A DNA stretch of 64,000 nucleotides, from positions 1 through 64,000 of the forward strand of contig NZ_UCNJ01000004.1 in the NCBI RefSeq assembly GCF_900473965.1, in the 5' to 3' direction. How positions within the stretch are numbered: the first letter of the stretch is position 1; every line of letters starts with the position of its first letter. This document shows positions 15,021-54,675 of this stretch, in pieces. This DNA is from Synechococcus sp. UW179A. Its GTDB lineage: Bacteria; Cyanobacteriota; Cyanobacteriia; PCC-6307; Cyanobiaceae. Below the pieces are notes generated by a model. The model was given only the letters and a program-made list of their open reading frames with translations, was not told where the DNA came from and searched no databases. A program made the translations under genes and the position numbers.

Positions 15021-15056
15021 AATGATCATGCGGACGTCACCGATGTCACGCAGGCT

Positions 15057-15143: not shown

Positions 15144-15147
15144 TTCC

Positions 15148-16206: not shown

Positions 16207-16324
16207 AGACCTGAATGGGGGAGACAGAGGGCCTTAAGAGACCCTTTCGGGTGATGTGGGTTTCGCTCAGTTCAGCGATGGTGAAGACATCGGAGGGATG
16301 ACCTCCTACCCTCACACCAAACAA

Positions 16325-16633
16325 ATGAAACTCGTCTCTTCCATTGCTGCCGCATCTGTTATCGGCGCTTCAATGTTTATTGCTGCACCGGTTGCTGACG
16401 CAAAAGAGCATCACCACCATCATCATCACCACAGACATCATGAGCTAAGAAGAATTCATCGTGAATTCCGCCATGATGTTCGCGAATTTAATCATTACCA
16501 GAGAGCATATAATCATGATTGGCGGCATGCTCGCAGGGTTTACAACCGCGAGGTGTATGGCTACCCGAGAGTGATTCCTGCTTACGGATATAACCATCGC
16601 CATCCTGGATTCGGAATCCAGATCAGCTTCTGA
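16325..16633 (+). CDS. secreted histidine-rich protein, copy A
   Basis: A 102-residue protein: signal peptide with cleavage after VADA, a run of eight His plus RHH, then a basic helical stretch (ELRRIHREFRHDVREFNHYQ) and an aromatic tail (YGYPRVIP..GFGIQISF). The His run suggests binding of Zn, Ni, Cu or Co in the periplasm; this is inference. The ATG is chosen because the signal peptide starts there; upstream sequence is conserved among copies. Paralogs: 19393-19776, 28185-28514 and, without the His run, 54387-54656. Confidence 0.8.
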   Translation: MKLVSSIAAASVIGASMFIAAPVADAKEHHHHHHHHRHHELRRIHREFRHDVREFNHYQRAYNHDWRHARRVYNREVYGYPRVIPAYGYNHRHPGFGIQISF

Positions 16634-16847: not shown

Positions 16848-17120
16848 TTGTCCTCAGAACAACTTAAAGCCTTCCTGGAAAAAGTCAAAGCTGACACCAG
16901 CCTTCAGGTGAAGCTCAATGGAGCTGCAGATGTAGATGCTGTTGCGGAGATTGCGAAAGAAGCAGGATTTGCAATTACCGCAGAAGATATTCAATCAATG
17001 CAATCGGCAACGGTAGAATTGTCATACGAGGATCTGGAAGGTGTAGCTGGTGGGTCTGATCTGGAAGGAGCCTTTCGTCACCTTTCACTTGCGCCCATTC
17101 TGTATGGCTGCCCCAGCTAG
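16848..17120 (+). CDS. Nif11/prochlorosin-type leader peptide precursor 1
   Basis: 90 residues, starting at TTG (aligned with the ATG of its paralogs). The leader (SSEQLKAFLEKVKADTSLQ..) is of the Nif11 type used by class II lanthipeptide synthetases of the ProcM kind, and ends LEGVAGG. The 21-residue core after GG contains three Ser and one Cys (four residues from the end), so one thioether ring is possible. First of four tandem cassettes. Confidence 0.85.
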   Translation: MSSEQLKAFLEKVKADTSLQVKLNGAADVDAVAEIAKEAGFAITAEDIQSMQSATVELSYEDLEGVAGGSDLEGAFRHLSLAPILYGCPS

Positions 17121-17153
17121 CTCGCGTTCTTATCGTTGCCCAGCCTACGCCCT

Positions 17154-17186
17154 CAAAGCCCTTGCATTAGCAGGGGCTTTTTATTG
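17154..17186 (+). terminator. terminator of peptide cassette 1
   Basis: AAAGCCC..GGGCTTT stem with inner TGC/GCA around ATTA, followed by TTATT. The same design recurs after the next three cassettes with different stem bases. Confidence 0.8.
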
Positions 17187-17322
17187 CATCAATAGTCTGA
17201 CTAACCCCATAAATCAGCCTTCAATACCTGGCACCATCGCCCTCACTTAGCGGGCTTTTTTATTGCTTGTAGTCACCGCAGCCGACCACTGCTATGACCA
17301 GGCAGTAGCTCCGCGCCCTCCA

Positions 17323-17568
17323 ATGTCAGAAGAACAACTTAAAGCCTTTCTAGAAAAAGTCAAAGCGGATACCAGTCTGAAAGAGAAGCTCAAAGCAGAA
17401 GGTGCTGACCTTGTTGCGATTGCTAAAGACGCTGGTTTTATGATTTCCGTTGACGACTTGAAGAAGGCTAAATCAGAACTTTCAAAAGTGGAATTGGAAG
17501 GTATCGCTGGAGGCTTCTATGATCCTCCGGGTGGGTGCAGAATGGGTCAAACCATTGACAGAATATAG
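17323..17568 (+). CDS. Nif11/prochlorosin-type precursor 2
   Basis: 81 residues from the ATG beginning MSEEQLKAFLEKVKADTSL. The leader ends LEGIAGG; the core is FYDPPGGCRMGQTIDRI with one Cys and one Thr, enough for a single methyllanthionine ring. The frame is open upstream to 17263 but the paralogs all start at MSEEQ. Confidence 0.88.
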   Translation: MSEEQLKAFLEKVKADTSLKEKLKAEGADLVAIAKDAGFMISVDDLKKAKSELSKVELEGIAGGFYDPPGGCRMGQTIDRI

Positions 17569-17603
17569 CTAGCAAGACGGGTGCTCTGCTTGCGATCTCA
17601 AAA

Positions 17604-17627
17604 ATCCCTGCATTAGCAGGAGTTTTT
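17604..17627 (+). terminator. terminator of peptide cassette 2
   Basis: CCTGC ATTA GCAGG stem followed by AGTTTTTT. Confidence 0.8.
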
Positions 17628-17755
17628 TATTTCTTCAATCACCCCTAAAAGCTCATAAGTTGGCATTCAGTACCTGGCACGATTGAGCGCTATAAGTATT
17701 GGCCAAAGACGCTGCAGCAGACCGTTGCTATGACTGCTGAAAAGACCTGCTACTC

Positions 17756-18016
17756 ATGTCAGAAGAGCAACTCAAAGCGTTCCTTGAAAAAGTAAAAGGC
17801 GACACCACGCTTCAGGAACAGCTCAAAGCTGCAGCTGATACTGATGCAGTTCTTGCGATTGCGAAAGAAGCTGGCTTCAGCATCTCTGCTGATGACTTGA
17901 AGAACGCTCAATCAGAGATCACAGATGAGGAGCTGGAAGACGCAGCCGGCGGTACTTCACCTATGATTATCACTATCACTCCTTTAAGCCTATTAAAGGC
18001 ACGGATCTGCGAGTGA
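17756..18016 (+). CDS. Nif11/prochlorosin-type precursor 3
   Basis: 86 residues; leader MSEEQLKAFLEKVKGDTTLQ.. ending LEDAAGG. The core is TSPMIITITPLSLLKARICE, hydrophobic, with three Thr, two Ser and one Cys next to the end. A large ring closed by the terminal Cys is possible if a ProcM-like enzyme acts on it. Confidence 0.88.
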   Translation: MSEEQLKAFLEKVKGDTTLQEQLKAAADTDAVLAIAKEAGFSISADDLKNAQSEITDEELEDAAGGTSPMIITITPLSLLKARICE

Positions 18017-18027
18017 GCCTACGCCCT

Positions 18028-18057
18028 CAAAGCCTCTGTATTGACAGGGGCTTTTTA
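18028..18057 (+). terminator. terminator of peptide cassette 3
   Basis: AAAGCCTCTGT ATTG ACAGGGGCTTT with a small mismatch, then TTATT. Confidence 0.8.
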
Positions 18058-18183
18058 TTGCTTTAATCACGCCAATAATCCCACAAATCAGCCTTCAATA
18101 CCTGGCACGATTGAGCGCAGTAATTGTTAGCCAAAGACGCTGCAGCAGACCGTTGCTATAACCACTAAAGACTACCGATACCA

Positions 18184-18420
18184 ATGTCAGAAGAACAACT
18201 GAAGGCATTCATCGCCAAAGTTCAAGCCGATACCGAATTGCAAGAAAAATGCAAGGCGGCAGCCTCCTCTGAGGAAGCAATGGTCATCGCAAAAGCAGCG
18301 GGATTCTCAATCACTGAAGATGACATTCACTCGCAATCTGTATCTGACGATGAGCTGGAAGGAGCCTCTGGCGGAGGGTATTCAGTGCTGTGGGCACTGC
18401 TGGGGAGGCGGTGTAATTAA
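18184..18420 (+). CDS. Nif11/prochlorosin-type precursor 4
   Basis: 78 residues; leader MSEEQLKAFIAKVQADTELQ.. ending LEGASGG, core GYSVLWALLGRRCN with one Ser and one Cys nine residues apart. The leader carries an extra Cys (EKCKAA). Last of the four tightly packed cassettes. Confidence 0.87.
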   Translation: MSEEQLKAFIAKVQADTELQEKCKAAASSEEAMVIAKAAGFSITEDDIHSQSVSDDELEGASGGGYSVLWALLGRRCN

Positions 18421-18444
18421 GAATATTGAGCCTACTAACCATCA

Positions 18445-18472
18445 AAGCCCCTTGTATAGAAAGGGGTTTTTA
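18445..18472 (+). terminator. terminator of peptide cassette 4
   Basis: CCCCTT GTATAGA AAGGGG followed by TTTTT. Confidence 0.8.
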
Positions 18473-18744
18473 TTGCTTCAATTACACCCATAAGCCCAAC
18501 AATCAGCCTTCAATACCTGGCACGATTGGGCGCAATTGAGAAGCAATAGTCAGCGCTTAATTAGTAATCAAGCCTTCAACCAACTAGCAACTCCTAGCAA
18601 CACGCGTTCAGCGGCAGCAATCAACTAAGACTCCCTAGGGTTGGTGCCGTAGTGATGCATCAACGCGATACACCACTGGTCTGAAGACCAGCGGTGGAAT
18701 TGATGTCATGAATGATGCCATGCCATCGCTTTAGGAATCAAAAC

Positions 18745-18827
18745 CCGAGCTGCAACTGGTTTCACCTTTGGACTTGGAAACCAGCATGTCAGCAATGGCA
18801 CCGTTGGTTCGAATCCGAGCCTCTCCG
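18745..18827 (+). pseudogene. degenerate second copy of tRNA-Ser
   Basis: Aligns with the anticodon arm, variable arm, T arm and acceptor end of the tRNA at 15057-15143 (CTTGGAAACCAGC, then TTGGTTCGAATCCGAGCC and CTCTCCGTTCCA), with the anticodon stem and variable arm decayed and the 5' acceptor half unrecognisable. Downstream identity continues through the terminator and into the next bases (GTGTCT-AAAGG-TTCTCAG). It marks a duplication of the tRNA together with the nuclease/His-rich module. Confidence 0.8.
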
Positions 18828-18831
18828 TTCC

Positions 18832-18859
18832 AAAAGCCCAGTCAATGACTGGTTTTTCG
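18832..18859 (+). terminator. duplicated tRNA terminator
   Basis: CCCAGTCAATGACTGG hairpin then TTTTT, the same as after the intact tRNA-Ser. Confidence 0.75.
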
Positions 18860-18941
18860 TGTCTTAAAGGATTCTCAGAGTCGCTTCAGATGAGAGATGC
18901 GATTCCGTACTGCCATCATCAGACCAGTTGAACTGTAATCA

Positions 18942-19214
18942 GTGGTGGGCCTGGCGCAGCCCGTTGCGGTCCTCGAAACCGTCACCATCCGCAACTGCTA
19001 CGACAGTGAAACCTGCCGGACCAGAGGCGGTGAGCAGATCAGGTTGGCTTGCATCAACACCATCGAACTGAATGGTCAGCGAGCTCAGCCGGAAGGCCTT
19101 CGCCGCATCACCACCGATCGCTACTGCCGGACTGTAGGAGAGCTGTTCGTGGACGGAATGAACGTGCACCAGGCAATGGTCGCCAGCAGCCATGCCGAGA
19201 TCTATTGGACATAG
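18942..19214 (+). pseudogene. decayed thermonuclease gene, copy B
   Basis: Similar to 15814-16206 over VLETVTIRNCYDSETC, IRLACINTIELNG and GLRRITTDRYCRTVGELFVDG. Compared with the intact copy it lacks the signal peptide, has lost about 17 residues between ELNGQRA and LRRIT, has D-to-S and D-to-N changes in the first two acidic motifs, and stops early after HAEIYWT. It is very unlikely to be an active nuclease. Confidence 0.75.
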
Positions 19215-19392
19215 GCCAGCCCGTTCCCCTGGACGCGCTGCATACCTGAACGGGGGATAGCTAGGGCAGGGAAGTTCACCCTTCCGGGGGACATGGGATG
19301 ACAGCAATTCAGCGACTATCACTACATCGGAGGGAAGACCACAGCTATCCACATCAATTTCTCAGCGTAGTCTCACCCTTCGTATCGGTCTC

Positions 19393-19776
19393 ATGAATGA
19401 GCCTAAATACAACCGAAGTAAAGCTATGGTCACCCAATCGATCACTGCCACTGACAGATTCAAAAGGCTAATTGCTACTGCAGCTCTTTGTGCAGGAGCG
19501 CTGGGAGTTTCAACATTGGCTATCACCCCTGAAGCAGAAGCTAATCAGCATCACCATAGTCACCATCGTCATCATGAGCTGAGAAGAATTCGCCGTGACT
19601 TCCGTCACGATATTCGTGACTTTAATCATTATCAGAGGGCATACAATCGAGATTGGCGTCATTCTCAGAGAATTTACAACCGCGAGGTGTATGGCTACCC
19701 ACGTATCATTACCCCCTATGGATACGGCTATCCCCAACGAGTTCAACCTGGATTTGGAATCCAGATCAGACTCTGA
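19393..19776 (+). CDS. secreted histidine-rich protein, copy B
   Basis: 127 residues with a longer N-terminus than copies A and C, a signal segment (ATAALCAGALGVSTLAI), a shorter His cluster (QHHHSHHRHHE), then the same ELRRIRRDFRHDIRDFNHYQ helix and PGFGIQIRL tail. The nuclease partner upstream is broken while this gene is intact, so the two do not need each other. The start could instead be the ATG at 19426. Confidence 0.78.
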   Translation: MNEPKYNRSKAMVTQSITATDRFKRLIATAALCAGALGVSTLAITPEAEANQHHHSHHRHHELRRIRRDFRHDIRDFNHYQRAYNRDWRHSQRIYNREVYGYPRIITPYGYGYPQRVQPGFGIQIRL

Positions 19777-19788
19777 GATTCATTTGTT

Positions 19789-19886
19789 GTCGGGAAGCCT
19801 GATGCCATGAAAGCGAGGCTGAGAGCTATACAAAACCCGGAAGGGAAAAGCAGGGGGCGTTAAGTAATCGCTATCGATCTCCCGAC
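19789..19886 (+). ncRNA. candidate structured RNA element, copy B
   Basis: Same 98-base element as 16646-16743 and 28527-28624. Ends GTCGGGA and TCCCGAC pair perfectly; the inner CCCGGAAGGG keeps a GNRA-type loop (GGAA here, GAAA in copy C). It begins 12 bases after the His-rich gene. Confidence 0.6.
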
Positions 19887-19908
19887 AAAACAACTCTCAC
19901 TAATGTCT

Positions 19909-19932
19909 GCCCTGCCAAATGCGGGGTTTTTT
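19909..19932 (+). terminator. terminator after RNA element B
   Basis: CCCTGC CAAAT GCGGGG (one G-U pair) followed by six T. Confidence 0.8.
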
Positions 19933-20211
19933 ATTTCCCTGGGTCGCACGGCAGAATATGCGTCACTAAATCAACGTTGCCCCATCTGATCTTGCTGGAG
20001 TCCACATAAGCGATCTTAAAGAAGTCGTGGGCTTTCGGGTCAAGGGCTACTCCTCCGCGGTGAATGACCTGACCCATCCAGCAATCCTTGTCGTGCTTCT
20101 CCCCTTCAAACGGTCGTGTTTCACGATCACCGTCATACCGGGAGCCGCATCGAGAACGATCGGGCGTTCCGAAGGGTCGAACTGGTTGTGGATCCAATGG
20201 TCATCTGACAT
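19931..20211 (-). pseudogene. DUF3104 family gene with frameshift
   Basis: Reading from an ATG at 20211 gives MSDDHWIHNQFD, then RPIVLDAAPGMTVIVKHDRL, the family N-terminus; after a GGGG run near 20101-20104 the frame shifts and continues as EKHDKDCWMGQVIHRGG..DPKAHDFFKIAYVD to the stop. The intact relative is at 32716-32988. The family is small, found in marine Synechococcus/Prochlorococcus and of unknown function. Confidence 0.75.
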
Positions 20212-20374
20212 ACCTGCAAAAACAGAACGCCCGTACTATCCGCAAATCAGAAGGACTGCTCAAGTTCGCCTGGCAGGACGAGTCCAGATGGTGCCTGGGT
20301 ACGGCAACGCTGCTGGTGAACCAAATCTTCCGGAGCTGCCTGTTGCTGCCACTGAGCCCAAGCAGACAACTCCA

Positions 20375-20440
20375 ATGACTGAAGAGCAACCAAAGAAGAA
20401 GAAGGGCCCCAAAGTCAAGCTTACTGATGTTATTCAGTAA
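20375..20440 (+). CDS. possible 21-residue peptide in the DUF3104-linked module
   Basis: ATG-initiated MTEEQPKKKKGPKVKLTDVI plus one residue. It starts with TEEQ like the Nif11 leaders and sits after the element that also precedes Nif11 genes or remnants at about 26.1 and 30.2 kb. A 39-residue Trp-rich frame (20440-20559) starts in a TAATG overlap with its stop. Both are too short to be sure. Confidence 0.3.
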   Translation: MTEEQPKKKKGPKVKLTDVIQ

Positions 20441-20670
20441 TGCGCACTGCCCTATTAGCTAAATTCGGCGAGCTCATTCGCAACAAAACAGTGGAAATCT
20501 CTCGCTGGAATCTTTGGAACTTTGAACGCAATCGACCTTGGAACGGTATCGAGAATTAGCATGTAAAAAATGAATTTGCTCGGGTAAGCAAAGTAATCCC
20601 CTTTTGGCTTGAATTTCACCTGAAGGAGTCGGGTTTATAGTTATACAGTTGTTTTATGCTTTAATTTCTG

Positions 20671-20952
20671 ATGTCTAATGATCAACTCGATGCCTTCATG
20701 GAGAGGGCTTCGGCTGACGAAGGTCTACGGTCAAGGCTTAAAGCTGCAACAAGTCCACAGGCTGTCGCTGAAATAGCCAAGGAACTCGGTTACACAGTTC
20801 CTGTGGATGATTTGTATGCGGGAGATTCCATTTCGGATCAGGAGCTTGAGGCGATTACCGGAGGTGGAGGTGGCCAGGCCGGGAAAAGCTGTTCTGTTGG
20901 ATGTGTTTGCAAACAGTCCTTACCTATTGAAGTCGGTTACCCTAAAGAATGA
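20671..20952 (+). CDS. Nif11-type precursor 5 (divergent leader)
   Basis: 93 residues. The leader (MSNDQLDAFMERASADEGLR..) is more divergent than the others but keeps the layout and ends LEAITGG. The core of about 27 residues contains CSVGCVC, three Cys within seven residues, plus nearby Ser. An AT-rich promoter-like stretch (TTATACAG..TATGCTTTAAT) lies just upstream rather than the shared cassette block. A perfect terminator follows. Confidence 0.85.
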   Translation: MSNDQLDAFMERASADEGLRSRLKAATSPQAVAEIAKELGYTVPVDDLYAGDSISDQELEAITGGGGGQAGKSCSVGCVCKQSLPIEVGYPKE

Positions 20953-20971
20953 GGTCATAGATATTGGCAAA

Positions 20972-20991
20972 TTGCCCTCTTTTGAGGGCAA
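20972..20991 (+). terminator. terminator of precursor 5
   Basis: TTGCCCTC TTTT GAGGGCAA, perfect 8-bp stem, followed by TTATTGTTT. Confidence 0.8.
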
Positions 20992-21149
20992 TTATTGTTT
21001 CGGGAGAAGAAACACCTATCTCTTCAACGCTCAGTCTTGTCATTGAAGTGCAGTGATAACATCAGTCTAGGCATCTTTATGACAATCATAGTTGGTTATA
21101 ATTTGTCCATTAAAGTATTTCTTGCCGTGATGCTTTCATGGCTCTAATT

Positions 21150-21355
21150 CACTTAACAGAACTTAATTCAAAGCATTTATTGAAGACATCAAGGCTAATA
21201 CTAAGCCCCATAAGAAGCACGCAACAACTTTGGACACAGATGCTGTGATTGAGATTATTCCGGAATCAGGAACTGGCATTACTTTCGAAGATGAAAAGAA
21301 CGGTCAATCCCGCTTTCTGAAGAGGACCTATGAAGGCGCGACTCGGCGCCAAGGA
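21150..21355 (+). pseudogene. decayed Nif11-type precursor
   Basis: Reads (S)LNRT-stop-FKAFIEDIKANTKP..DTDAVIEIIPESGTGITFEDEKNGQS with no initiation codon, an in-frame TAA where Leu belongs in QLKAF, and a ruined GG motif (YEGATRRQG). A cassette-type terminator follows at 21473-21501. Confidence 0.75.
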
Positions 21356-21472
21356 TTCTTTCAGCCAGGCCAAGCATATTTGGCTTAATACTCAAACAAA
21401 AACCTGCTCAAACTAAAAAGTGGCAGTGGGAATGAACAAACAATAAAAGTCAGTGGGATGGACTACGCAGCC

Positions 21473-21501
21473 AAAGCCCCTATATTGACTAAGGGTTTTT
21501 T
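21473..21501 (+). terminator. cassette-type terminator after the decayed precursor
   Basis: AAAGCCCCTATATTGACTAAGGGTTTTTT resembles the terminators of cassettes 1-4 with a weakened stem. Confidence 0.6.
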
Positions 21502-21625
21502 GTGACAATTACACTCAAAAACTCATGAATTCTCCTTCAATACCCGGCACGATTGAGCACACTAATAATTAGCCAATAAAACTGTGGAACACTTTTGCTA
21601 TAGTCGTTATAGATTGCCGATAGTC

Positions 21626-21907
21626 ATGTCAGAAGAACAGCTCAAAGCCTTCTTAGAAAAGGTCAAAGGTGACACCGAGCTTCAGGAGAAGCTGAAAGCA
21701 GAAGGTGCTGATCCTATTGCTATTGCGAAGGCTGCTGGGTTCTTAATAGATACAAAAGATCTGCTTCTCTTTAAAAAACAAAGAAATAAGCTTACGGATG
21801 CAGATCTTGAAACTGCTGCTGGTGGGGGTCTCACACAAAGTGAAACTTGTGATCTTCCATACTTCCCTTGTACTATTTTGCAATCCTGTTTAGGTGATTT
21901 ATGTTGA
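21626..21907 (+). CDS. Nif11/prochlorosin-type precursor 6
   Basis: 93 residues from the MSEEQ start. Leader ends LETAAGG. The 26-residue core has four Cys (ETCDLPYFPCTILQSCLGDLC) and several Thr/Ser, the best lanthipeptide candidate in the window. The shared upstream block precedes it. Confidence 0.9.
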   Translation: MSEEQLKAFLEKVKGDTELQEKLKAEGADPIAIAKAAGFLIDTKDLLLFKKQRNKLTDADLETAAGGGLTQSETCDLPYFPCTILQSCLGDLC

Positions 21908-22056
21908 TAAGATTTGGCTATCAGGCTCGTTACGATTAGCACTACTGAGCTACTATGTTTGAATTGGATTTACAGTTTTTTCAATCTCAAGATTATGCCA
22001 TAAGCTATCAATAGCCTAAACCTTAGGCTTACAACCAACAGCCAGTATCAGAATCA

Positions 22057-22305
22057 ATGTCAGAACAACAACTCAAGGCATTCATTGCTAAAATTCAATC
22101 AGATGATTTACTGCAAAAACAACTAAAGGCGGAAGGTGCAGACGTTTTAGCGATTGCAAAAGCTGCTGGATTCTCTTTGTCGAAAGATGACTTGGCCTTG
22201 TGCCAGCAAAATATTTCTGATGCTGAGCTGGAAACTTCTGCAGGTGGAGGTAGAACGGATGTTTTCTCTTGTTCAAACGAATGCTGCACTTATTTTAACT
22301 GCTGA
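22057..22305 (+). CDS. Nif11/prochlorosin-type precursor 7
   Basis: 82 residues; leader MSEQQLKAFIAKIQSDDLLQ.. ending LETSAGG, core GRTDVFSCSNECCTYFNC with four Cys, two Ser and two Thr. The leader also has a Cys (LALCQQ). A second degenerate copy of the core-coding bases follows the stop codon. Confidence 0.9.
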   Translation: MSEQQLKAFIAKIQSDDLLQKQLKAEGADVLAIAKAAGFSLSKDDLALCQQNISDAELETSAGGGRTDVFSCSNECCTYFNC

Positions 22306-22337
22306 ACTGAAAGCTTCGGAAAAATGAGGCAGGTCTG

Positions 22338-22384
22338 ATGTTTACTCTCGTTCTAACGAATGCTGAACTTACTTTGAACCAGAT
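22338..22384 (+). pseudogene. duplicate of the precursor 7 core-coding segment
   Basis: GATGTTTACTCTCGTTCTAA and following matches 22258-22304 (GATGTTTTCTCTTGTTCAAA) over about 47 bases, 80 bases further on, with no leader in frame. It would read DVYSRSNEC, with a stop replacing the next Cys. Confidence 0.65.
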
Positions 22385-22528
22385 TGTCCATAGATAGTAT
22401 GGCCTCTATTGTGCTGGCAAAACTTGCGCAAAATAAAAGTCTCGCCTTTCTATAAATTCGCGATAACATTTAAATATCGCTTGATACTTCGCGTCTTAAC
22501 CCTATAAGCACATCAAGTATTTAAGTTA

Positions 22529-22580
22529 ACATCTGAGGAACAGCTCAAGGCCCTTTTCAGAGAAGCTCAATGCTTTAAAC
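22529..22580 (+). pseudogene. N-terminal fragment of a Nif11-type precursor
   Basis: TCTGAGGAACAGCTCAAGGC continues as SEEQLKALFREAQ and then loses similarity. No ATG in place. Confidence 0.6.
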
Positions 22581-22771
22581 CCACACCCCCCCTTAATTCA
22601 CCTTCAAGACCTGGCACAATTGAACGCATTTGGGAAGAAGTAAATAGTGCAAGATCGCTAAAAGTCTGTCATTGAAGCCCAGCAAAGTTCGGGGGAATTA
22701 ATTCCCTACTGAAGAGCAACAAAGCTGAAACTGACTACTGCAACATGCAATGTCGATAAAAGCTAGTCATC

Positions 22772-23386
22772 ATGGGCGGAGAGCTAGCTGAATCAATGCA
22801 GCATTCACCGAGATTAACGTTTTCCCTAAGTGGTGTTGCTGCACTGACACTCGCCAACGGAGTTTTGCTGTCTACTGCTGCTCAGGACGTTATTAAAGTA
22901 ACCCCAAGCAATAACTTAACTGTAGTGATAATCCGACATGGAGAGAAACCATTAAATAACCACAATCTGTCATGCAAAGGCTTGAACCGAGCTCTGCAGC
23001 TTCCGGAAGTACTTAATAAAAAATTTCTAAATTTTGATCATACTTTTGTCCCTTCGTTAAAGAACGGAGAACACACGCGTCATGCAAGAATGTTTCAGAC
23101 AGTCACTCCATTAGCGATCAAGAATAAATTAGAAGTCAACAGCAGCTTTGGCGGAAAAGATTATGATGGCATAGCTAAACATCTACTTTCTAAAGCAGGC
23201 ACTATCCTTCTAGTATGGAAACACAGCAAAATTCAAAATATCGCTCAAAACCTCGGGGTAAAGAATCCACCTCAATGGAGAAAAGAAGATTTTGACAGTA
23301 TCTGGGTCATCTCATTCAAAAATGGCAAAGCATCATTAGAAATCGACAAGCTAGGAATAAATCCATCTATCCACTGCAATTATTAG
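22772..23386 (+). CDS. secreted histidine phosphatase family protein
   Basis: 204 residues with an N-terminal hydrophobic segment (LTFSLSGVAALTLANGVLL) that looks like a signal peptide. The catalytic motif RHGEKP is at residues 55-60 and EHTRHARMFQTV supplies a second conserved region; the C-terminal catalytic His is probably in LVWKHSKIQ. It is in the phosphoglycerate mutase-like superfamily, perhaps an exported phosphatase. It ends the first peptide cluster and has no clear operon partner. Confidence 0.8.
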   Translation: MGGELAESMQHSPRLTFSLSGVAALTLANGVLLSTAAQDVIKVTPSNNLTVVIIRHGEKPLNNHNLSCKGLNRALQLPEVLNKKFLNFDHTFVPSLKNGEHTRHARMFQTVTPLAIKNKLEVNSSFGGKDYDGIAKHLLSKAGTILLVWKHSKIQNIAQNLGVKNPPQWRKEDFDSIWVISFKNGKASLEIDKLGINPSIHCNY

Positions 23387-23590
23387 TCATCACCACTCGT
23401 GGACTAGTTAACACTCAGCGCTCTCAACCCTTGGATTAACAAGCGGGTCCAATTAATACTCGTTCAGCGGCTGCTCAATCCAGCGGAACGCCCGACAACC
23501 GGTCGATCGTCATAGCTAGCAGGGAGACCTAAACACATCCTATGGGCCGTCCGCAGCCATGCCGGGAACTCCCAGTGGTATTTCGAGCTT

Positions 23591-23872
23591 TTGTCAGCTG
23601 AGACGGCCGCATATGGAATGATTGATGTTGACATCTCTTGCTGTTCCAACTTATTGGACCTCCGTAACAAAAGAGAAAAGGATCGGCTTTTTGATCAGAT
23701 GGCGAAGAGTGGAAAAGATGAAATTGCAGCTCTGAAGGTCGAACCCTTAGAAGCGCAGATCCAACGCATCCAGCAGCGCTTGCCCTGGAGAATGCGGCCG
23801 CCAAAGAGCGAGGTCACTGGCATTCGGCTTCTGACTGAGCGAACATCAACACAACTACAGCCAGGACAATGA
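23591..23872 (+). CDS. possible small hypothetical protein upstream of a membrane peptide
   Basis: 93 codons; the middle is charged and helical (KREKDRLFDQMAKSGKDE..EPLEAQIQRIQQRL), as in a short coiled coil, with an alternative ATG at 23618. Its stop overlaps the start of the next small gene as ATGA, which is the best argument that it is translated. No family recognised. Confidence 0.4.
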   Translation: MSAETAAYGMIDVDISCCSNLLDLRNKREKDRLFDQMAKSGKDEIAALKVEPLEAQIQRIQQRLPWRMRPPKSEVTGIRLLTERTSTQLQPGQ

Positions 23873-24036
23873 CTAAAGGCCCCTTAAAAACATTCGTTGA
23901 TGCCGATAGAGATGCCTATTTTTGGATCAAAAAAAAGCTCGGCCTGAGTGAGCACCAAATGGGTGTTCTTATCTGGTTTTCGGGTCTAATCACAGGAATC
24001 GTGATTGGAGTGTTGATTGGAATATTGATCGGCTGA
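23869..24036 (+). CDS. 55-residue single-pass membrane protein
   Basis: MTKGPLKTFVDADRDAYFWI begins a short soluble part, followed by one strong membrane helix (LIWFSGLITGIVIGVLIGI) at the C-terminus containing GxxxG-like spacing. It overlaps the upstream frame by ATGA. The composition is that of a real small membrane protein; function unknown. Confidence 0.55.
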   Translation: MTKGPLKTFVDADRDAYFWIKKKLGLSEHQMGVLIWFSGLITGIVIGVLIGILIG

Positions 24037-24423
24037 GCCGTCTTAGCCCTTACGGGCATAATCAAGCAGGCTCGTTGTCGTACCCAGACTGATACCAACC
24101 AGTACTCCGTCATCTCTCCATTGGGCTTCTGGTTTCTGCAGCTACCATCTCCGCACTGAGGTTGAAAGCGCACAACGGCAGTACTGAGAATCTAGGTGAT
24201 GTAATGCGCATCAACCTCAAGGACGTGATCAACCCACGGTCGTTTCTAAAGGTGTTGCAATCTGCTGCAAGAGTAAATCAGACAGTCGTCTGACCTTCTT
24301 CCCCCTGTTGGTTGGCGACAACAGCCGCGGATTCACTGATGAATACGCAAACTCAAGTTTGAAAAGCCTGAGGGCTCCTACAAACGCAGCAACACCGATA
24401 TGGCGGGCGCAACCAACACAACT
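24037..24423. other. intergenic region, no gene supported
   Basis: A 29-codon frame starting MRINLKDVINPRSF lies at 24203-24292. Nothing else recognisable. Confidence 0.4.
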
Positions 24424-24636
24424 TCAACGCACATTGGTTTCCACTAGCTGAATGGCGAACTCATTCATACTTTTCCACAACGGTGGATATAACAGCCGAC
24501 CGCTGAAGATCATTTTGATCAGATTATCACTGAGATAGAAGTCAGCAGCTGGTTTAATGTCTACTTGGGCTATAGCCATAAACCATTCTGCCAAGGTCAT
24601 TACGCCACTTGCCCCCATCAAGTAGTTGCAGCCCAA
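24424..24636 (-). CDS. possible small hypothetical protein
   Basis: 70 codons; the stretch MTLAEWFMAIAQVDIKPAAD is protein-like, and an internal ATG at 24600 may be the true start. No family recognised. It lies just downstream of the lipoprotein gene on the same strand. Confidence 0.35.
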   Translation of the reverse strand: MGCNYLMGASGVMTLAEWFMAIAQVDIKPAADFYLSDNLIKMIFSGRLLYPPLWKSMNEFAIQLVETNVR

Positions 24637-24649
24637 GCATAACTTTTAA

Positions 24650-24967
24650 TCAGATGCCATCTTCAACATCCCCCCGATCTTTTGATGCCGAAGGATCACA
24701 GATGTCATAGATCAGTTCGTCTGTATCAATAGAACCGTCAACAGTATTAGCCTGCACTTCATCCTTTAACCCCAAGCGAACAAGTGCCTCATCTTTAGTG
24801 ATTTGGTCTGTTTTGTATTGAGAGCAAATTTCTTTAATCTTTTTATCCGAGTCACCTGGAACATCTGCAGTCATTTGACAGGAAACAACAAACAGAGACA
24901 ACGGAAGAAGAATTAAAACTTTGATTGTTTTCACTTTCAGAAAAACACTGGAATAGTACATAGACAA
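24650..24967 (-). CDS. small putative lipoprotein
   Basis: 105 residues. The N-terminus has a type II signal peptide (KTIKVLILLPLSLFVVSC) with the lipobox Cys at about residue 30, so the mature protein would be a lipid-anchored acidic domain of about 75 residues with two further Cys. Other possible starts (GTG at VKTIKV) give a more typical signal length. No family recognised. Confidence 0.65.
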   Translation of the reverse strand: MSMYYSSVFLKVKTIKVLILLPLSLFVVSCQMTADVPGDSDKKIKEICSQYKTDQITKDEALVRLGLKDEVQANTVDGSIDTDELIYDICDPSASKDRGDVEDGI

Positions 24968-25694
24968 AATAACTAGTTTCCCGCCAAAATCCAGATAGGC
25001 ATCAAAAGCTACCTACTACTTCTAACCATGAGATAAACATCGCCTTAGCGCTGCACCTTAATCGTGGTCACTGAGGAAATGACACAGGAAGATCGTCCAT
25101 TGATTACCCAACCCGGCCGTCGAGTGGAGCGCAAAGCACACATGGAACTGCCAGTTAATCAGCCTGGATCAGCCTATGAAGAAAATTGCGGTCCCTTCTG
25201 CCGTAGCACTGGGGACGACCCGCATCCACGGGAAAGGGAATTGACATCGAGCCATGAAACAACAGAGATGAGATTGTCTGCATGTCGTATTGGCAGGACT
25301 GGAACAATTCCGAGAGGAATTACGTTCGTTTCGGACGAGCTGGGAATGCCTGCAGGGCAAAACAAGAAGGGCGGTCTCAGGCCAATAACCGATGTTCACG
25401 GATAGACCTGAAATACGTTTCAGACAGGGAGTAACTCCCAAGAGCCAGGGGATCACTGGCATGCGGACAAGCCGAAAACGTCGCTCGTAGCAGGAATACC
25501 TGTTGATTCATCGAGTTCGGGTTGGCTCAGCAGAGAATCAGAGTCTTTTCAAAGGAGAAACAAAAAGAGAATGATCCAAGTGGTCCCAATCAGGAAAAAC
25601 TTGTCTGCGCCTTTGTCAATATCGAAAAGTTCATAGGGTTCTGGAATCATTGCCTGGGTTGTAGGGAGGAAGAATCTAGTCGTTCAGACCGCAG
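24968..25694. other. region without a supported gene
   Basis: Two overlapping opposite frames (25064-25405 plus, 25169-25462 minus) are present but neither reads like a protein. The region looks like decayed sequence. Confidence 0.4.
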
Positions 25695-25925
25695 AGAGGA
25701 TGTAATACGGGAGATCGAGGTTGACTCAGCTCCCCCCATTGCCCCCAACAGCGATCTGAAAGAGGTTGTGGAGCTTCGGATCTCGAGCAGAACCACTGCA
25801 GAGGATTACCTGGCCCATCCACCAATCCTTGTTAACCGATTCGCCGGTCAGGCAGGGAGGCCAACGATCACCGTCGTACCTGGAGGCACATCCAGTAAAA
25901 CCTGCCTCTCTGACTCAGGCGAGCT
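25695..25925 (-). pseudogene. decayed DUF3104 gene
   Basis: On the minus strand: LLDVPPGTTVIVG, a frameshift/stop, then KDWWMGQVILCSGSARDPKL and HNLFQIA, then loss of the rest with stops. It clearly derives from the family whose intact member is at 32716-32988. Confidence 0.75.
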
Positions 25926-26098
25926 GTAGTCCCCCTGATCAACCAACAGCTCCTCAAAACTAAGACACCAGCATTAGCCCAGATCAGGGAAGACCGATCG
26001 GCTTTACCTGGGAGAACCAGACCCAATGGTGCAAGGAAACCAGGCGAAGCTGCTGCTGGCTTTGGCTAAGTCTTCTCTACTGGCCAATCATCCATAGT

Positions 26099-26193
26099 GC
26101 TGGAGCAACTCAAAGCCTTCCTTGAGAAGGTCAAAGGTGACAAGTTTAGGAGTGAAGTTTGCACAACAAAACGCACGCAAATTATCCTCTAAT
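26099..26193 (+). pseudogene. Nif11-type precursor fragment in the DUF3104-linked module
   Basis: LEQLKAFLEKVKGDK followed by unrelated residues to a stop. The bases before it (CTGCTGGCTTTGGCTAA, TACTGGCCAATCATCC) match those before precursor 9 at 30.1 kb, so this is a decayed copy of that module. Confidence 0.65.
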
Positions 26194-26355
26194 ATCTGGC
26201 GCGATTAAGCGCTATTGAACAGAAGTAGATAACGCAAAATAACTAATCATTTGAAATTGAGACTCTACCAAGTACGGAGTTTTCACTGTCGCAGTGCAGT
26301 GTCCTTATCAGCTGCCGCATGCGCTGATCAGTCAGGCAAATAGTTCTGAGCTATT

Positions 26356-26458
26356 CACCAGAAGCTCACCAGAACATCGCAAGGTCTCCACCAGAGCTGT
26401 GTAGTGGTGGTCACCAGAAAGGCTGTGATCTTCAAGGAGTCGAGGGGGCAACACCCCC
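26356..26458 (+). promoter_or_regulatory. four-box CACCAGA operator and 5'-UTR hairpin, copy 1
   Basis: CACCAGA boxes begin at 26356, 26367, 26389 and 26412 (offsets 0, 11, 33, 56). GGGGG CAACA CCCCC follows at 26444-26458, 22 bases before the ATG of precursor 8. The same arrangement precedes the genes at 54656 and 60542 on the minus strand. Confidence 0.7.
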
Positions 26459-26479
26459 AAATATTCATCTCTTAAAATC

Positions 26480-26761
26480 ATGACGGAAGAACAACTTCAA
26501 GTTTTTCTGGCTGACGCCAAAGACAATACGGAGCTTCAGGACAAGCTTAAAGCGGCTTCTAATGCTAATACTGTTGCTGCCATTACCAAAGAAGCTGGAT
26601 TTAATATCTCCGCAGGCGATTTGAAGAAAGCGCAATCAGAGATATCAGATGATGAATTGGAAAGAGCGGTAGGAGGCAAAAGACTGAATCCCGCTTTTTG
26701 CACTTTAGGGGCATCGCCTGCCATTAATAGTTGTTTAGACGGCGCAATGAAAATGTGGTAA
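26480..26761 (+). CDS. Nif11/prochlorosin-type precursor 8
   Basis: 93 residues; leader MTEEQLQVFLADAKDNTELQ.. ending LERAVGG (Val in place of Ala/Ser before GG). The core of about 27 residues contains two Cys (AFCTLGASPAINSC), one Thr and two Ser. Unlike the others it lacks the shared cassette block and instead has the four-box CACCAGA operator, so its regulation probably differs. Confidence 0.87.
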   Translation: MTEEQLQVFLADAKDNTELQDKLKAASNANTVAAITKEAGFNISAGDLKKAQSEISDDELERAVGGKRLNPAFCTLGASPAINSCLDGAMKMW

Positions 26762-26920
26762 TTAATGTCGACTCAACCGAAATCTCCGAAGAGCTTTGTA
26801 TTGGATAAGCCACATCCAATCACTTATAGTCGTTTCCAAATTCTATTATGATTGAGTGCAGGAATCATTCGTCAGAGAAGCCGCTGCACAACATTGCAAC
26901 AAACGCAAAAAGACCTAATA

Positions 26921-26985
26921 CTCATATCCGAAGAACAGCTCAAAACATTCACACTGATGCGGAAAGAAGCTAGAGAAAAGAATCA
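26921..26985 (+). pseudogene. N-terminal fragment of a Nif11-type precursor
   Basis: ISEEQLKTFTLMRKEAREK without start codon or GG motif. Confidence 0.5.
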
Positions 26986-27167
26986 CAATTAAAAACACCT
27001 AAACATCACAAAACAACTTCTGAGATGAGGCTTGAAGTAGTGGCCACGCTTCAAAGGCCGCGGACTGAACAGTGCAAAAGCTGCCCAGCAAGCACATGCA
27101 AAACCATATGAGGTTCACTTTGATGCACAAGAAGGATCAAACCAGTCTCTGCTGTTGGCTTAAAAAA

Positions 27168-27635
27168 GGAAGGCCGCCCTTCCCGGTGGAAAGACGGCCT
27201 AACTCGCTCGTTTGTGCATTGTTCAACCCGTTACTTGTGGCAAAAGGAAGGGGTCGAAGCTTCTGGCTAGAGGCACCCTGGGGCCATTGGCTCTAGGTGT
27301 CGGGTTGTGACCTCCTAGGGCACCTAGGGCGGTGCAAGCGGAGTGTCGATTGGCGTGGCGCACAAGGTCTGCCTACCAAAGGACCAACCCAGGTCATTGT
27401 TGAGACTGTTGGAGCAGGGGCCAGAAAGTCAGTCTGCTTCTGCAATCTGCTCAGGTGGAGTATCGGCCGTCATGGGCTCCTCCGATGTCGTGGCCTTACT
27501 CTCCACCCGCAGTGGGCCTTTTGACATCGGTTGAATCGCGCATTGCCTTCCAAGGCAAAACCTCCAATAGTGGAAATGGCATGCCCAGGATCAGACGAAA
27601 GGCTGAAGTGATAGCACTTCGATCAAGTCAATTGT
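27168..27635. repeat. long conserved intergenic block, copy 2 of 2
   Basis: Closely similar to 15366-15835, including the AGGCCGCCC..GACGGCCT inverted repeat at the start, CTAGGTG (27293-27299) with CACCTAG (27321-27327), and the last bases TGAAGTGAT..ACTTCGATC that in copy 1 form the start of the nuclease gene. Here the nuclease ATG is lost (GTGATAGC). Confidence 0.65.
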
Positions 27636-27654
27636 CCTGATCTAGTTGGTGGGA

Positions 27655-27815
27655 CTGAAGCAGCAGGTTGTGGCCCTAGAGACCGTAAGCATGAGGGCTC
27701 CAACGACGGCGACAGCCGCTGAACGTCATATGAGGAGCGCTTTATGAATGCAAGACATGCGCAACAGCTAATGGTCGCCGAGCGCCATCCCGAAATTGAT
27801 TGGGAAGCAACACCT
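27655..27815 (+). pseudogene. thermonuclease remnant, copy C
   Basis: Recognisable only as short islands: GTGGCCCTAGAGACCGTAAG (LETV), CGACGGCGACA (DGD), then GCAACAGCTAATGGTCGCCG and GAGCGCCATCCCGAAATTGA (QQ.MVA..HAEI). The rest is deleted. Confidence 0.65.
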
Positions 27816-27829
27816 CCCCCCTTGACCTC

Positions 27830-28024
27830 ATGAACCCAAGATCTGCGCCGATCAACTCGATAGCAGTAGCTCTCTTGGCAATTGCTGTGATTGTGCTCGC
27901 GATCAAGGAACCGCATTGCGACTGCGAGAACACGATGCCATCAGCACAAACGCCGACCAGTGAAGGGGCTTCTCCACCTCGACCTTCCAGAGCTGAGCGG
28001 CAGCGTGAGCTCCACAAGTTTTGA
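27830..28024 (+). CDS. 64-residue single-pass membrane protein
   Basis: MNPRSAPINSIAVALLAIAV starts a membrane helix that runs to VLAIKEP; then HCDCEN and a Pro/Ser-rich, basic tail. The helix with a short positive N-terminus and polar tail looks real. It sits between the nuclease remnant and the His-rich gene, a position that is empty in copies A and B. No family recognised. Confidence 0.55.
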   Translation: MNPRSAPINSIAVALLAIAVIVLAIKEPHCDCENTMPSAQTPTSEGASPPRPSRAERQRELHKF

Positions 28025-28095
28025 CCAAGCTAAATTGCTGAAACCGGTTCTCTGGAATACGCGGATCACACCATTGGGGGATAGCTGAAAACAAA

Positions 28096-28122
28096 ACATC
28101 ACCCTCATGGGTGATGTGAGTT
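28096..28122 (+). terminator. hairpin upstream of His-rich gene C
   Basis: CATCACCC TCAT GGGTGATG perfect 8-bp stem followed by TGAGTTTT. Weaker equivalents (ACCCTTTCGGGT, TCACCCTTCCGGGGGA) lie at the same place before copies A and B, so it may be a conserved leader structure rather than only a terminator. Confidence 0.6.
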
Positions 28123-28184
28123 TTCTGCTGATCAGGGATGGTGAATGCATCGGAGAGACGACCTCCTTCAGGCACACCAATCAA

Positions 28185-28514
28185 ATGAAACCTTTCACAT
28201 CCATAGCTGCAACTGCTGTAATCGGCACTTCAATGTTTATTCTGCCACCTGCTGCAAATGCGAATGAACATCATCACCACCGTCATCATCACCATCATCA
28301 ACATAGAAATCATGAGCTAAGAAGAATTCATCGAGAATTCCGCCATGATGTTCGCGAGTTTAATCATTATCAGAGGGCTTACAATCGTGATTGGCGCCAT
28401 GAGCGCAGGATTTATAACCATGAAGAGTTTGGCTACCCACGTGTGATTCCTGTTTATGGAAATGGCTATCACCAGAGAATTCAGCCTGGATTCGGAATCC
28501 AAATCAGACTCTGA
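28185..28514 (+). CDS. secreted histidine-rich protein, copy C
   Basis: 109 residues: signal peptide (TSIAATAVIGTSMFILPPAANA), the longest His cluster of the three (HHHHRHHHHHQHRNH), the same ELRRIHREFRHDVREFNHYQ helix and an RIQPGFGIQIRL tail. Metal binding in the periplasm is inferred from the His run. Upstream bases from about 28110 are shared with copy A, and the RNA-like element follows. Confidence 0.8.
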   Translation: MKPFTSIAATAVIGTSMFILPPAANANEHHHHRHHHHHQHRNHELRRIHREFRHDVREFNHYQRAYNRDWRHERRIYNHEEFGYPRVIPVYGNGYHQRIQPGFGIQIRL

Positions 28515-28526
28515 TCGATATTTGTT

Positions 28527-28624
28527 GTCGGGAAGCCTGAAGCCATGAAAGCGAGGCTGAGAGCTATACAAAACCCGAAAGGGAAAAGCAGGGGGCGTTG
28601 AGTAGTCGCTATCGATCTCCCGAC
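28527..28624 (+). ncRNA. candidate structured RNA element, copy C
   Basis: 98 bases, the cleanest of three copies. Closing stem GTCGGGA/TCCCGAC; AGCCT/AGGCT; CCC GAAA GGG with a GNRA loop; GCG/CGC. It is followed by a spacer with CCTCACACC and a strong terminator. It could be the 3' UTR of the His-rich mRNA or an independent small RNA. Confidence 0.6.
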
Positions 28625-28645
28625 AAAACAACCTCACACCAACCA

Positions 28646-28670
28646 CGCCCCGCCAAGCGCGGGGCTTTTC
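28646..28670 (+). terminator. terminator after RNA element C
   Basis: GCCCCGC CAAGC GCGGGGC, perfect 7-bp stem, then TTTT. Confidence 0.88.
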
Positions 28671-28775
28671 ATTGCTCTGGAGTGAAAAGAAGTATTTGGA
28701 TCAACAGATCTAAGTCGTCACTCAGTGAAAGCGTCTCTTGCCAAGCTGTGATCAATCAGTCAGTCGTTTGAGGCC

Positions 28776-29489
28776 ATGACAGCACAACTGGTTGTGATTA
28801 CAGGTGCAGGCGCAGGGATCGGAAAGGCATTAGCACATGCTTTTTCTGCAGCCGGCCATCCCTGTTTGTTGATCTCAAGAAACCAGGAGATGGATCCCAC
28901 ATTGGCCAATAAGCCAGTGCTGTATCGCCAACTCGATGTCTCCGATGCCCAAGCGCTGGGGGATGCCATCACATCAGCAGAGAGTCAGTACGGGCCCACA
29001 GGCTGCCTGATTAACAACGCAGGGATGATCCACATCGGCGGACTAGACAGTCTCAGCCTCGAGCAGGTCAACGAGGAAGTCGACACCATGATCAAAGGGG
29101 TGACAAATGGCATTCACCATGTTTTGTCAGGCATGCGAGAACGCAAATGCGGAACAATCATCAATATCAGCTCCATTGGTGATCGCAAGCCTGCGCCAGG
29201 AGCACCTGTGTATCACGCTTGCAAACACGCCGTGCGCTCATTGGGCGAGAGCCTGAACATGTCAGAGGCAGAGCACAACGTCCGTGTGATCAACCTTGCT
29301 CCCGGACTCATCCGAACAGCGATTCATCAGAAGATGGGGATCAGCTTTGAGGAATACTGCGAAATGCTCGGCAACCCGACATTCATTGAGCCGATTGAAC
29401 TCGCAAAAATTGTCCTCTTCTGTTGGCAGCAGCCACAACACATCTGCATTCGAGATGTCGCAGTTATGCCAACTGACTGCGGATTCTGA
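28776..29489 (+). CDS. short-chain dehydrogenase/reductase
   Basis: 237 residues of the classical SDR fold: cofactor motif TGAGAGIG near the start, NNAG, and catalytic Ser (NISSIG) with YHACK. It should reduce or oxidise a small carbonyl/alcohol with NAD(P)H; substrate unknown. It stands alone after the terminator of module C and has the base composition of the core genome. Confidence 0.9.
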   Translation: MTAQLVVITGAGAGIGKALAHAFSAAGHPCLLISRNQEMDPTLANKPVLYRQLDVSDAQALGDAITSAESQYGPTGCLINNAGMIHIGGLDSLSLEQVNEEVDTMIKGVTNGIHHVLSGMRERKCGTIINISSIGDRKPAPGAPVYHACKHAVRSLGESLNMSEAEHNVRVINLAPGLIRTAIHQKMGISFEEYCEMLGNPTFIEPIELAKIVLFCWQQPQHICIRDVAVMPTDCGF

Positions 29490-29504
29490 TGCTTGCCCTA
29501 ACCC

Positions 29505-29695
29505 CTCGGCAGGATGGGCGTCACCAGATCAGCTGGGTCACGGGCAGCACCGCCGCAGTGGATGACCTTGCCCCTGGCCCATCCACCAATCCTTGTCGGC
29601 TTTCTCTGCTGTCAGGTGGTCATGCCGAATGACCACCATCCACATTGGAACTACGCCCAACAAGACCGGCCCCTCTGATTCCTGCGAGCTCTATG
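29505..29695 (-). pseudogene. decayed DUF3104 gene
   Basis: On the minus strand the bases encode, across frameshifts, pieces like VIRHDHLTAEKADKDWWMGQ and KVIHCGGAARDP, then end. Same family as 32716-32988. Confidence 0.65.
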
Positions 29696-29699
29696 CCCC

Positions 29700-30005
29700 G
29701 TGACCAATCGACAGGCCAACAAATACAGGACATCAGTACTAGGCAGATTGGTTAAGGCTGCTCAACTCCACCTGGCTAGCAATGAAGTAGCTCATTACAT
29801 CGCCATGTACGAAGTTCTGATCGTCGCTCAGCTTCTGGCTCAGGATTCCTCGTTCCAGCAGTGGGTTGATAGCCGTCCCCCTGCAGAGCTCTGTGAGCTT
29901 TACTCAGACAAAATGATTCCCGACACCATGCTTCCCGGCGGGCGTGATTCGAGCCCATGCGGCACCGAAACCTTCGACAACCCGATGAATTACGTCATCA
30001 AATAG
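29700..30005 (+). CDS. small hypothetical protein
   Basis: 101 residues from a GTG; the middle (HYIAMYEVLIVAQLLAQDSS, FQQWVDSRPPAELCELYSD) reads like a helical soluble protein. An ATG at 29802 may be the true start. It lies inside a DUF3104-linked module, before precursor 9. No family recognised. Confidence 0.5.
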   Translation: MTNRQANKYRTSVLGRLVKAAQLHLASNEVAHYIAMYEVLIVAQLLAQDSSFQQWVDSRPPAELCELYSDKMIPDTMLPGGRDSSPCGTETFDNPMNYVIK

Positions 30006-30162
30006 CGGAATACATCCATCCGCCTGGCGGGTCAAAGCCAGAACCCTCTCTACCGCTGCGGTTCACTCTGAAACCCCGGCAAGACCAGGCCAGATGGTGC
30101 TCGGAATACGGCTGACGCTGCTGCTGGCTATGGCTAATTCTTCTGTACTGGCCAATCACCCA

Positions 30163-30402
30163 ATGTCAGAAGAGCAACTCAAGGCATTCCTTGAAAAAGT
30201 TAAAGGCGACACCAGTCTTCAAGAGAAACTTAAAGCAACTAAGTCACCCGAAGATGTCGTGACTATCGCCAAAGAACATGGTCATGAATTCACTGCTGAT
30301 AAGATCAGCCTGCTCAGTGAAGAGGAGCTGGAAGGTGTTGCTGGTGGTGGTGCTGTTGGCACGCCTAGTCTTAAGCCTCTAAATTTTATGTGCAACCCTT
30401 AG
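30163..30402 (+). CDS. Nif11/prochlorosin-type precursor 9
   Basis: 79 residues from MSEEQLKAFLEKVKGDTSLQ; leader ends LEGVAGG, core GAVGTPSLKPLNFMCNP with one Thr, one Ser and one Cys. The leader differs from the array members in its second half (HGHEFTADKISLLSEEE), and is closest to precursor 10 at 56663. It lies in a DUF3104-linked module. Confidence 0.87.
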   Translation: MSEEQLKAFLEKVKGDTSLQEKLKATKSPEDVVTIAKEHGHEFTADKISLLSEEELEGVAGGGAVGTPSLKPLNFMCNP

Positions 30403-54656: not shown

Positions 54657-54675
54657 GGATTGAAGAAGTGAATAT

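Follow-up and report, generated by a model that had tools for sequence, protein, structure and literature searches.

The prochlorosins (ProcA/ProcM) of Prochlorococcus MIT9313 and the synechococsins (SyncA/SyncM) of Synechococcus MITS9509 share a common plan of scattered precursor genes, each with a Nif11 leader ending in GG and a hypervariable core containing Cys, Ser and Thr, together with a full LanM synthetase and a C39-peptidase exporter. PMC10783134 attributes a natural cyclic-peptide library of very large size to one promiscuous enzyme, and lists 79 precursors for Synechococcus UW179A and 143 for BIOS-E4-1. The prochlorosin/synechococsin system itself is thus already known and the precursor set of the UW179A genome has already been mined (PMC10783134). 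The stretch described here (the window) comprises bases 1-64000 of contig C4 of that genome (G000; 3.06 Mb in 35 contigs), and contains an array of nine such precursor genes between 16848 and 30402, and a tenth at 56663. Compared with the ProcA/ProcM and SyncA/SyncM systems this genome has its own core sequences, and 108 of its leaders reach the family cut-off.

The ten genes are almost certainly prochlorosin (synechococsin) precursors, predicted to be acted on in trans by a LanM and exported by a C39 ATP-binding cassette (ABC) transporter, in an array apparently shaped by insertion and decay at a tRNA site and by recombination of modules. All ten genes listed in a preliminary description of the window are intact open reading frames (ORFs) that score 57.0 to 93.1 bits against TIGR03798, the profile used to score leaders (family cut-off 32.3 bits), and end their leaders in GG, so that each has a Nif11-type leader. 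The cores contain one to four Cys residues, five of them a single one (16848, 17323, 17756, 18184 and 30163), in agreement with that description, and both Cys and Ser/Thr are present in every core. The claim that the cores are completely different holds for eight of the ten, for which no relative reaches 50% identity among 337 units from five genomes (UW179A, G008, G013, G026 and G017), but not for core 18184, which is identical in G008, or core 20671, which has relatives in G008 and G017. The relatives contributed 161 (G008), 35 (G013), 33 (G026) and 23 (G017) units, against leader matches at E<=1e-8 numbering at least 150 (the best 150 of 276 candidates), 43, 36 and 34, respectively.

Genome-wide there are 125 leader matches at E<=0.1, with 123 of them in the analysed DNA, and 108 reach 32.3 bits on their own score. 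Ninety-eight matches score 50 bits or more; 94 of them are free of internal stops and finish within the analysed DNA, and in 85 of these the leader ends in GG, SG or AG. Cys occurs in 81 of these 85 intact cores, and shuffled core DNA would leave approximately 42 of the 85 without it. Cys makes up 10.1% of core residues, compared to 3.8% (standard deviation 0.45) for shuffled core DNA, 2.1% and 4.4% in the other two reading frames, and 0.09% in the leaders, and we read this enrichment as selection for Cys-bearing peptides. A single Cys is present in 22 of the 85, and Ser/Thr precedes a Cys in 65 and lies solely behind it in 16. The retention of Cys also argues against the notion that most genes of the window are copies in decay that yield no product, as do certain cores that are 97-100% identical in DNA across genomes; the five remnants named in the preliminary description (two of them weak), and the 13 of the 98 leaders that fail the requirements for intactness or the GG-type ending, speak for it, and we regard it as improbable.

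The absence of a synthetase noted in the preliminary description is true of the window but not of the genome. Contig C25 encodes a full LanM of 1127 residues (L056:5731-9114) with DUF4135 and LANC_like matches and a TIGR03897 score of 700.5 bits (cut-off 304), and a system lacking a synthetase is therefore ruled out. A CCG stretch can be identified by eye in its translation, corresponding to what is given in PMC10783134 as the zinc motif of LanM. The gene lies in a row with genes for a C39-peptidase ABC exporter (730 residues; TIGR03796 698.7 bits, under the strict cut-off of 853.3), a second ABC permease and, by reading, an HlyD-like protein, and the genome search proposed earlier thus finds both lanM and exporter, adjoining each other on another contig. 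The LanM is 92% identical to that of Synechococcus AG-679-A04 and, over the best segment, 50% identical to its counterpart in Prochlorococcus MIT 0701. One complete LanM beside a C39 exporter supports the earlier suggestion of a prochlorosin-type system in which a single enzyme would act in trans: this promiscuous LanM would bind the Nif11 leader of each peptide, dehydrate Ser/Thr residues and join them to core Cys residues, and the adjacent exporter would cleave after the GG and export the product. Near the lanM genes (L056:11988-19001) there is also an open frame of about 2338 residues, continuing past the end of the stretch, with short Ala/Ser-rich repeats that by eye resemble trimeric autotransporter heads.

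A second LanM-like protein (832 residues) is encoded on contig C12, and was considered and rejected as the prochlorosin enzyme; it matches DUF4135 only, with no LANC_like match, and is surrounded by four NHLP-like precursors (one, when tested, scores 32.4 bits against TIGR03793, below its cut-off), a YcaO protein, a nitroreductase-family (SagB-like) protein and a weak P450 match (L043:605-7903 and L167:9921-14615). The missing LANC_like match and the YcaO/NHLP setting make a role as the prochlorosin enzyme improbable. G008 likewise has a LanM-like match of the 832-residue type, among three DUF4135 matches in all, and is probably BIOS-E4-1. These C12 genes, together with three C39 matches in the genome beyond that at lanM, could suggest that the leaders also feed other enzymes and that some of the window cores end up carrying azoles instead of lanthionines. 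We consider this very improbable, because the C12 cluster has NHLP-type precursors of its own, as in the YcaO/NHLP/LanM-like dehydratase cluster of such make-up published for UW179A and BIOS-E4-1 (section 11 of PMC10783134), and because leader expansion tracks LanM across the genus.

This last relationship was seen in a survey of 31 genomes of the genus, including that of UW179A, in which leaders were counted at E<=1e-12 and LanM was taken as a DUF4135 match. Twelve genomes encode a LanM and contain 98, 21, 2, at least 135, 16, 39, 9, 29, 27, 19, 15 and 32 leaders, such that eleven of them have from 9 to at least 135, and all nineteen LanM-less genomes have between 0 and 3. By these counts leader expansion follows the enzyme, with G006 as the sole exception. 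The precursors, the LanM and its exporter, the enrichment of Cys in the cores, and this tie between enzyme and leaders, all evident in the sequences, together lead us to the prochlorosin reading.

To gain insight into how the cores differ, we divided the 337 units, which fall into 297 core families, into modules, with the 3' module defined as the last 66 nt of the leader, the core, and the next 60 nt; a pair was called mosaic if the 5' module ranks below tenth both ways. There are 29 pairs with 3' modules at least 90% identical, and nine of them, representing seven core families, are mosaic. In eight of the nine the first 60 nt of the leader are 75-88% identical, the last 66 nt 94-100%, the core 89-100%, the next 60 nt 82-100%, and a further stretch 67-99%. 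In the eleven triplets tested the similarity switches within the leader, 59-161 nt past the start codon (p 0.001 by permutation, the lowest value the test can give), and two control triplets gave p values of 0.018 and 0.012 with the partner unchanged (the other parent is matched at 4 of 162 and 7 of 34 sites on the left). The nine mosaic pairs offer 18 directions, 11 of which entered the recombination test, and the match to the 5' partner is inflated because it is the best of about 300. Here and below, pairs have members in common and are therefore not independent.

A similar picture emerges from units whose leaders are closely related. In the 14 pairs whose leader DNA is 95% identical or more, the 110 nt that come after the leader are at least 85% alike in nine and at the level of unrelated pairs in five, with none between; unrelated pairs have a mean of 0.575 and a 99th percentile of 0.645 over this distance. 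With leaders 92-95% identical (26 pairs) the following 110 nt fall below 0.65 in 15, at 0.65-0.75 in three, and at 0.80 or more in eight. This two-peaked outcome, together with identical cores found behind different leader 5' parts, which need exchange, favours exchange of modules over stepwise insertions and deletions. Alternatively, small insertions, deletions and frameshifts within the core could be the main way in which new cores arise; insertion-deletion events in the core are named in the discussion section of PMC10783134, citing among others a 2017 paper, and there are clear cases here, including a frameshifted core at C4:85115 relative to its relatives, another pair differing by a stop, and a change of repeat length in a Pro/Gly core. 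Intermediates (0.65-0.85) are also seen behind less similar leaders, in eight of 139 pairs with leaders 88-92% identical and 19 of 507 with leaders 85-88% identical; most pairs in these two classes are at chance level, and eight and six, respectively, lie above. Given the two peaks behind the closest leaders we regard this alternative as unlikely. Frameshifting as the main source of new cores was rejected; 44 of 1820 pairs were called 'frame-shifted', and with a threshold of 0.62 that is close to the random 99% level of 0.61, many of these are probably noise.

Block replacement thus looks commoner here than gradual change, and changes by frameshift, stop and repeat length occur too. In its fuller form, the chances of which we judge to be evenly balanced, the proposal is that prochlorosin diversity arises mainly by exchange, between dispersed gene copies, of a whole module running from the leader end through the core and some 60 nt to the terminator, and not by stepwise insertions and deletions in the core; the conserved leader and the terminator/upstream block would act as homology arms, and new copies would arrive with elements at the tRNA site. 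Recombination between gene copies would thereby place a core-bearing 3' module behind other leaders.

The terminator/upstream block is conserved around many precursors. When 93 upstream regions from the UW179A genome are aligned, their consensus shows a conserved block close to the start codon and a terminator-like stem, which we attribute by eye to the preceding gene. The 168-bp block between the third and fourth precursors has 40 copies in the genome among the best 40 of 107 candidates, and all 40 lie within 271 bp of a leader match. A 13-base motif of this block occurs within 120 nt upstream, with three or fewer mismatches, of 46 of 85 units in UW179A, 101 of 161 in G008, 19 of 35 in G013, 22 of 33 in G026, and 7 of 21 in G017, and in 23 of 1060 controls. 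The precursor unit therefore looks self-contained in many cases, with a putative promoter role for the block. A scan for sigma-70 consensus promoters found no excess (eight, with 15.4 expected in shuffles). A motif shared with the lanM operon was also considered and rejected, there being no copy in L056, although only 105 nt precede the first listed ORF.

The array begins after a tRNA-Ser (TGA) gene that is its likely integration target, and we compared this site in eight genomes (the window, G008, G026, G013, G005, G024, G019 and G017). The tRNA follows the same upstream gene (12647-14983 in the window, ribonucleotide reductase by reading) in all seven relatives. Partial copies of the tRNA lie behind it in G008 (60 nt, 100% identical) and in G013, and G026 has a tRNA fragment (positions 2-59) at the upstream gene with the full tRNA 28 kb further on. 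A gene for a tyrosine-recombinase-like protein of 367-379 residues lies close to the tRNA in G005, G017 and G026, and there are two interrupted copies in G008; loci of this family are L106:1603-2706, L102:2294-3433 (minus strand) and L101:5364-6500. Tyrosine recombinases are expected to contain an R, R-H, G-H, Y motif, and the three intact proteins have R, R-H, G-H and Y in common at the places expected for the family. The 19-kb stretch in G008 from the tRNA to its partial copy contains Pfam matches to a phage integrase (E 1.4e-19) and to DUF3987/helicase, as well as an SNase gene and one precursor.

In the stretches read, leaders are present in five of the eight genomes (the window, G008, G026, G013 and G005), every one of which also has part of a tRNA (copy or fragment) or a gene of the recombinase-like type. 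Both features, and leaders as well, are missing from the stretches of G024 and G019. G017 does have the recombinase-like gene, and its 11-kb stretch, which stops at a contig end, contains no leader. The counterparts of cores 18184 and 20671 lie off the tRNA-Ser site in G008, and that in G017 is on a different contig from the site. Growth of the array by local tandem duplication only, with the tRNA as a bystander, would fit the head-to-tail arrangement of the first four leader genes, 428-475 nt apart, and the alignment of 17155-18119 with 17602-18534 at 66%, but we consider it distinctly unlikely, since in the relatives this tRNA is repeatedly accompanied by leaders along with partial tRNA copies, recombinase-like genes and SNase genes, and the stretches of G024 and G019, which have neither partial copy nor recombinase, contain no leaders. 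The local array is best explained by serial insertion at tRNA-Ser, accompanied by decay; integrative elements carrying precursors would have inserted there repeatedly and then decayed.

Other features of the window are listed in Table 1. The three copies of the His-rich gene are diverged, lie beside precursors, and are also found in G008; no Pfam family was found for their products (two copies tested). A dispersed repeat of approximately 150-290 bp occurs four times between and after the precursors (19950-20241, 25743-25901, 29535-29685 and 32726-33018), and two ORFs at 61628-62672 look by eye like pieces of a DnaK chaperone, suggesting a broken copy. Of the five remnants claimed previously, those placed at 21150 and 30603 are clear, that at 26099 is a 15-residue leader start with an upstream block, and those at 22529 and 26921 are weak when taken alone; gene birth and death, as proposed earlier, is supported by the remnants together with the differing precursor sets at the same tRNA in relatives. 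On the minus strand, 54651-54788 and 60575-60692 contain DNA like precursor upstream and leader regions with no intact leader, and 60533-60471 resembles a leader tail ending in GG (E 0.016).

Table 1. Coordinates of precursor genes, remnants and associated features in the window; bit scores of precursors are against TIGR03798.
Position	Strand	Feature	Evidence and remarks
15056..15144	+	tRNA-Ser (TGA), likely integration target	array starts after it
15811..16206	+	SNase-family nuclease gene	Pfam SNase E=3.3e-9; copies in G008 and G026 stretches
16256..16633	+	His-rich small protein gene, copy 1	ORF, sequence comparison
16848..17120	+	precursor, core SDLEGAFRHLSLAPILYGCPS	76.2 bits; TTG start required
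17323..17568	+	precursor, core FYDPPGGCRMGQTIDRI	82.1 bits; sole Ser/Thr of core C-terminal to Cys
17756..18016	+	precursor, core TSPMIITITPLSLLKARICE	93.1 bits
18016..18183	+	terminator and conserved upstream block between two precursors	terminator-like stem 18029-18054
18184..18420	+	precursor, core GYSVLWALLGRRCN	82.7 bits; core identical in G008
18427..18536	+	terminator/upstream block without following leader gene	stem 18444-18470
18766..18828	+	partial tRNA-Ser 3' copy (tRNA positions 27-89)	81% identity; similarity runs on to 18889; after first four precursors
18897..19238	+	broken second SNase copy	sequence comparison
19393..19776	+	His-rich gene, copy 2	ORF, sequence comparison
20671..20952	+	precursor, divergent leader	57.0 bits; core related to ones in G008 and G017
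21167..21388	+	leader remnant, no start, no GG	20.7 bits; tblastn 8.7e-11; previously placed at 21150
21626..21907	+	precursor, core GLTQSETCDLPYFPCTILQSCLGDLC	76.4 bits
22057..22305	+	precursor, core GRTDVFSCSNECCTYFNC	72.0 bits
22532..22570	+	weak leader remnant, 13 residues	tblastn E 0.06; faint flank-like DNA match 22594-22628; previously placed at 22529
26016..26142	+	remnant with upstream block and leader residues 1-15	sequence comparison; previously placed at 26099
26480..26761	+	precursor, core KRLNPAFCTLGASPAINSCLDGAMKMW	64.1 bits
26850..26950	+	weak remnant, upstream block and leader start	9 residues, E 0.49; flank-like DNA match; previously placed at 26921
28107..28514	+	His-rich gene, copy 3	ORF, sequence comparison
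30163..30402	+	precursor, core GAVGTPSLKPLNFMCNP	88.6 bits
30606..30746	+	leader remnant, one internal TAA	28.7 bits; tblastn 1.2e-12; previously placed at 30603
56663..56911	-	precursor (tenth), core CWMNTCWGYGQGTAAAPDWN	62.1 bits

Several observations weigh against parts of this interpretation. Four of the 85 intact cores lack Cys; G006 has a full-size DUF4135 match (open frame of 1101 residues) with only two leaders; and six of the nineteen LanM-less genomes are under 90% complete. Among the 29 core-sharing pairs, 20 are not mosaic, several being plain orthologs or duplicates, and 264 of the 297 core families are singletons, so that exchange is seen directly in few core families. The recombinase call depends on a weak PHROG integrase match (E 7e-4, for the L106 protein) and on the positions of the catalytic residues, and when the tRNA-side recombinase was searched by sequence against Pfam, NCBIfam and PDB there was no match. 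A tblastn search with the G008 protein (E<=0.01) found no recombinase in the window and hence no integrase within the insert, and insertion there is therefore deduced from the partial tRNA copy and from the relatives.

The published UW179A and BIOS-E4-1 sets (PMC10783134) resemble ours in scale and in the YcaO/NHLP/LanM-like cluster, this being a comparison by description with counts made here under another cut-off. The signs that modules are exchanged and that arrays accrete at a tRNA site may be new; module exchange is not mentioned in the titles or abstract openings of the literature searched, which is weak evidence. The five-genome comparison provides a testable account of how the library is renewed, with core modules moving between leaders and arrays accumulating at a tRNA integration site, and cores that are kept between genomes, such as that of 18184, are better candidates for conserved function than the many singletons.

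Two other known systems invite comparison. Tycheposons are tRNA-targeted integrative elements of picocyanobacteria, and the locus is like them in its tRNA target and partial tRNA copy, and in the tyrosine-recombinase-like gene beside the tRNA in relatives; it differs in that the window gave no recombinase match and that Pfam has none for the tRNA-side recombinase of the relatives, and the elements here are putative. In cyanobactin precursor cassettes conserved flanks surround exchangeable core sequences, and conserved flanks and exchangeable cores are likewise found here, but with one gene for each core and with the genes dispersed around the chromosome.

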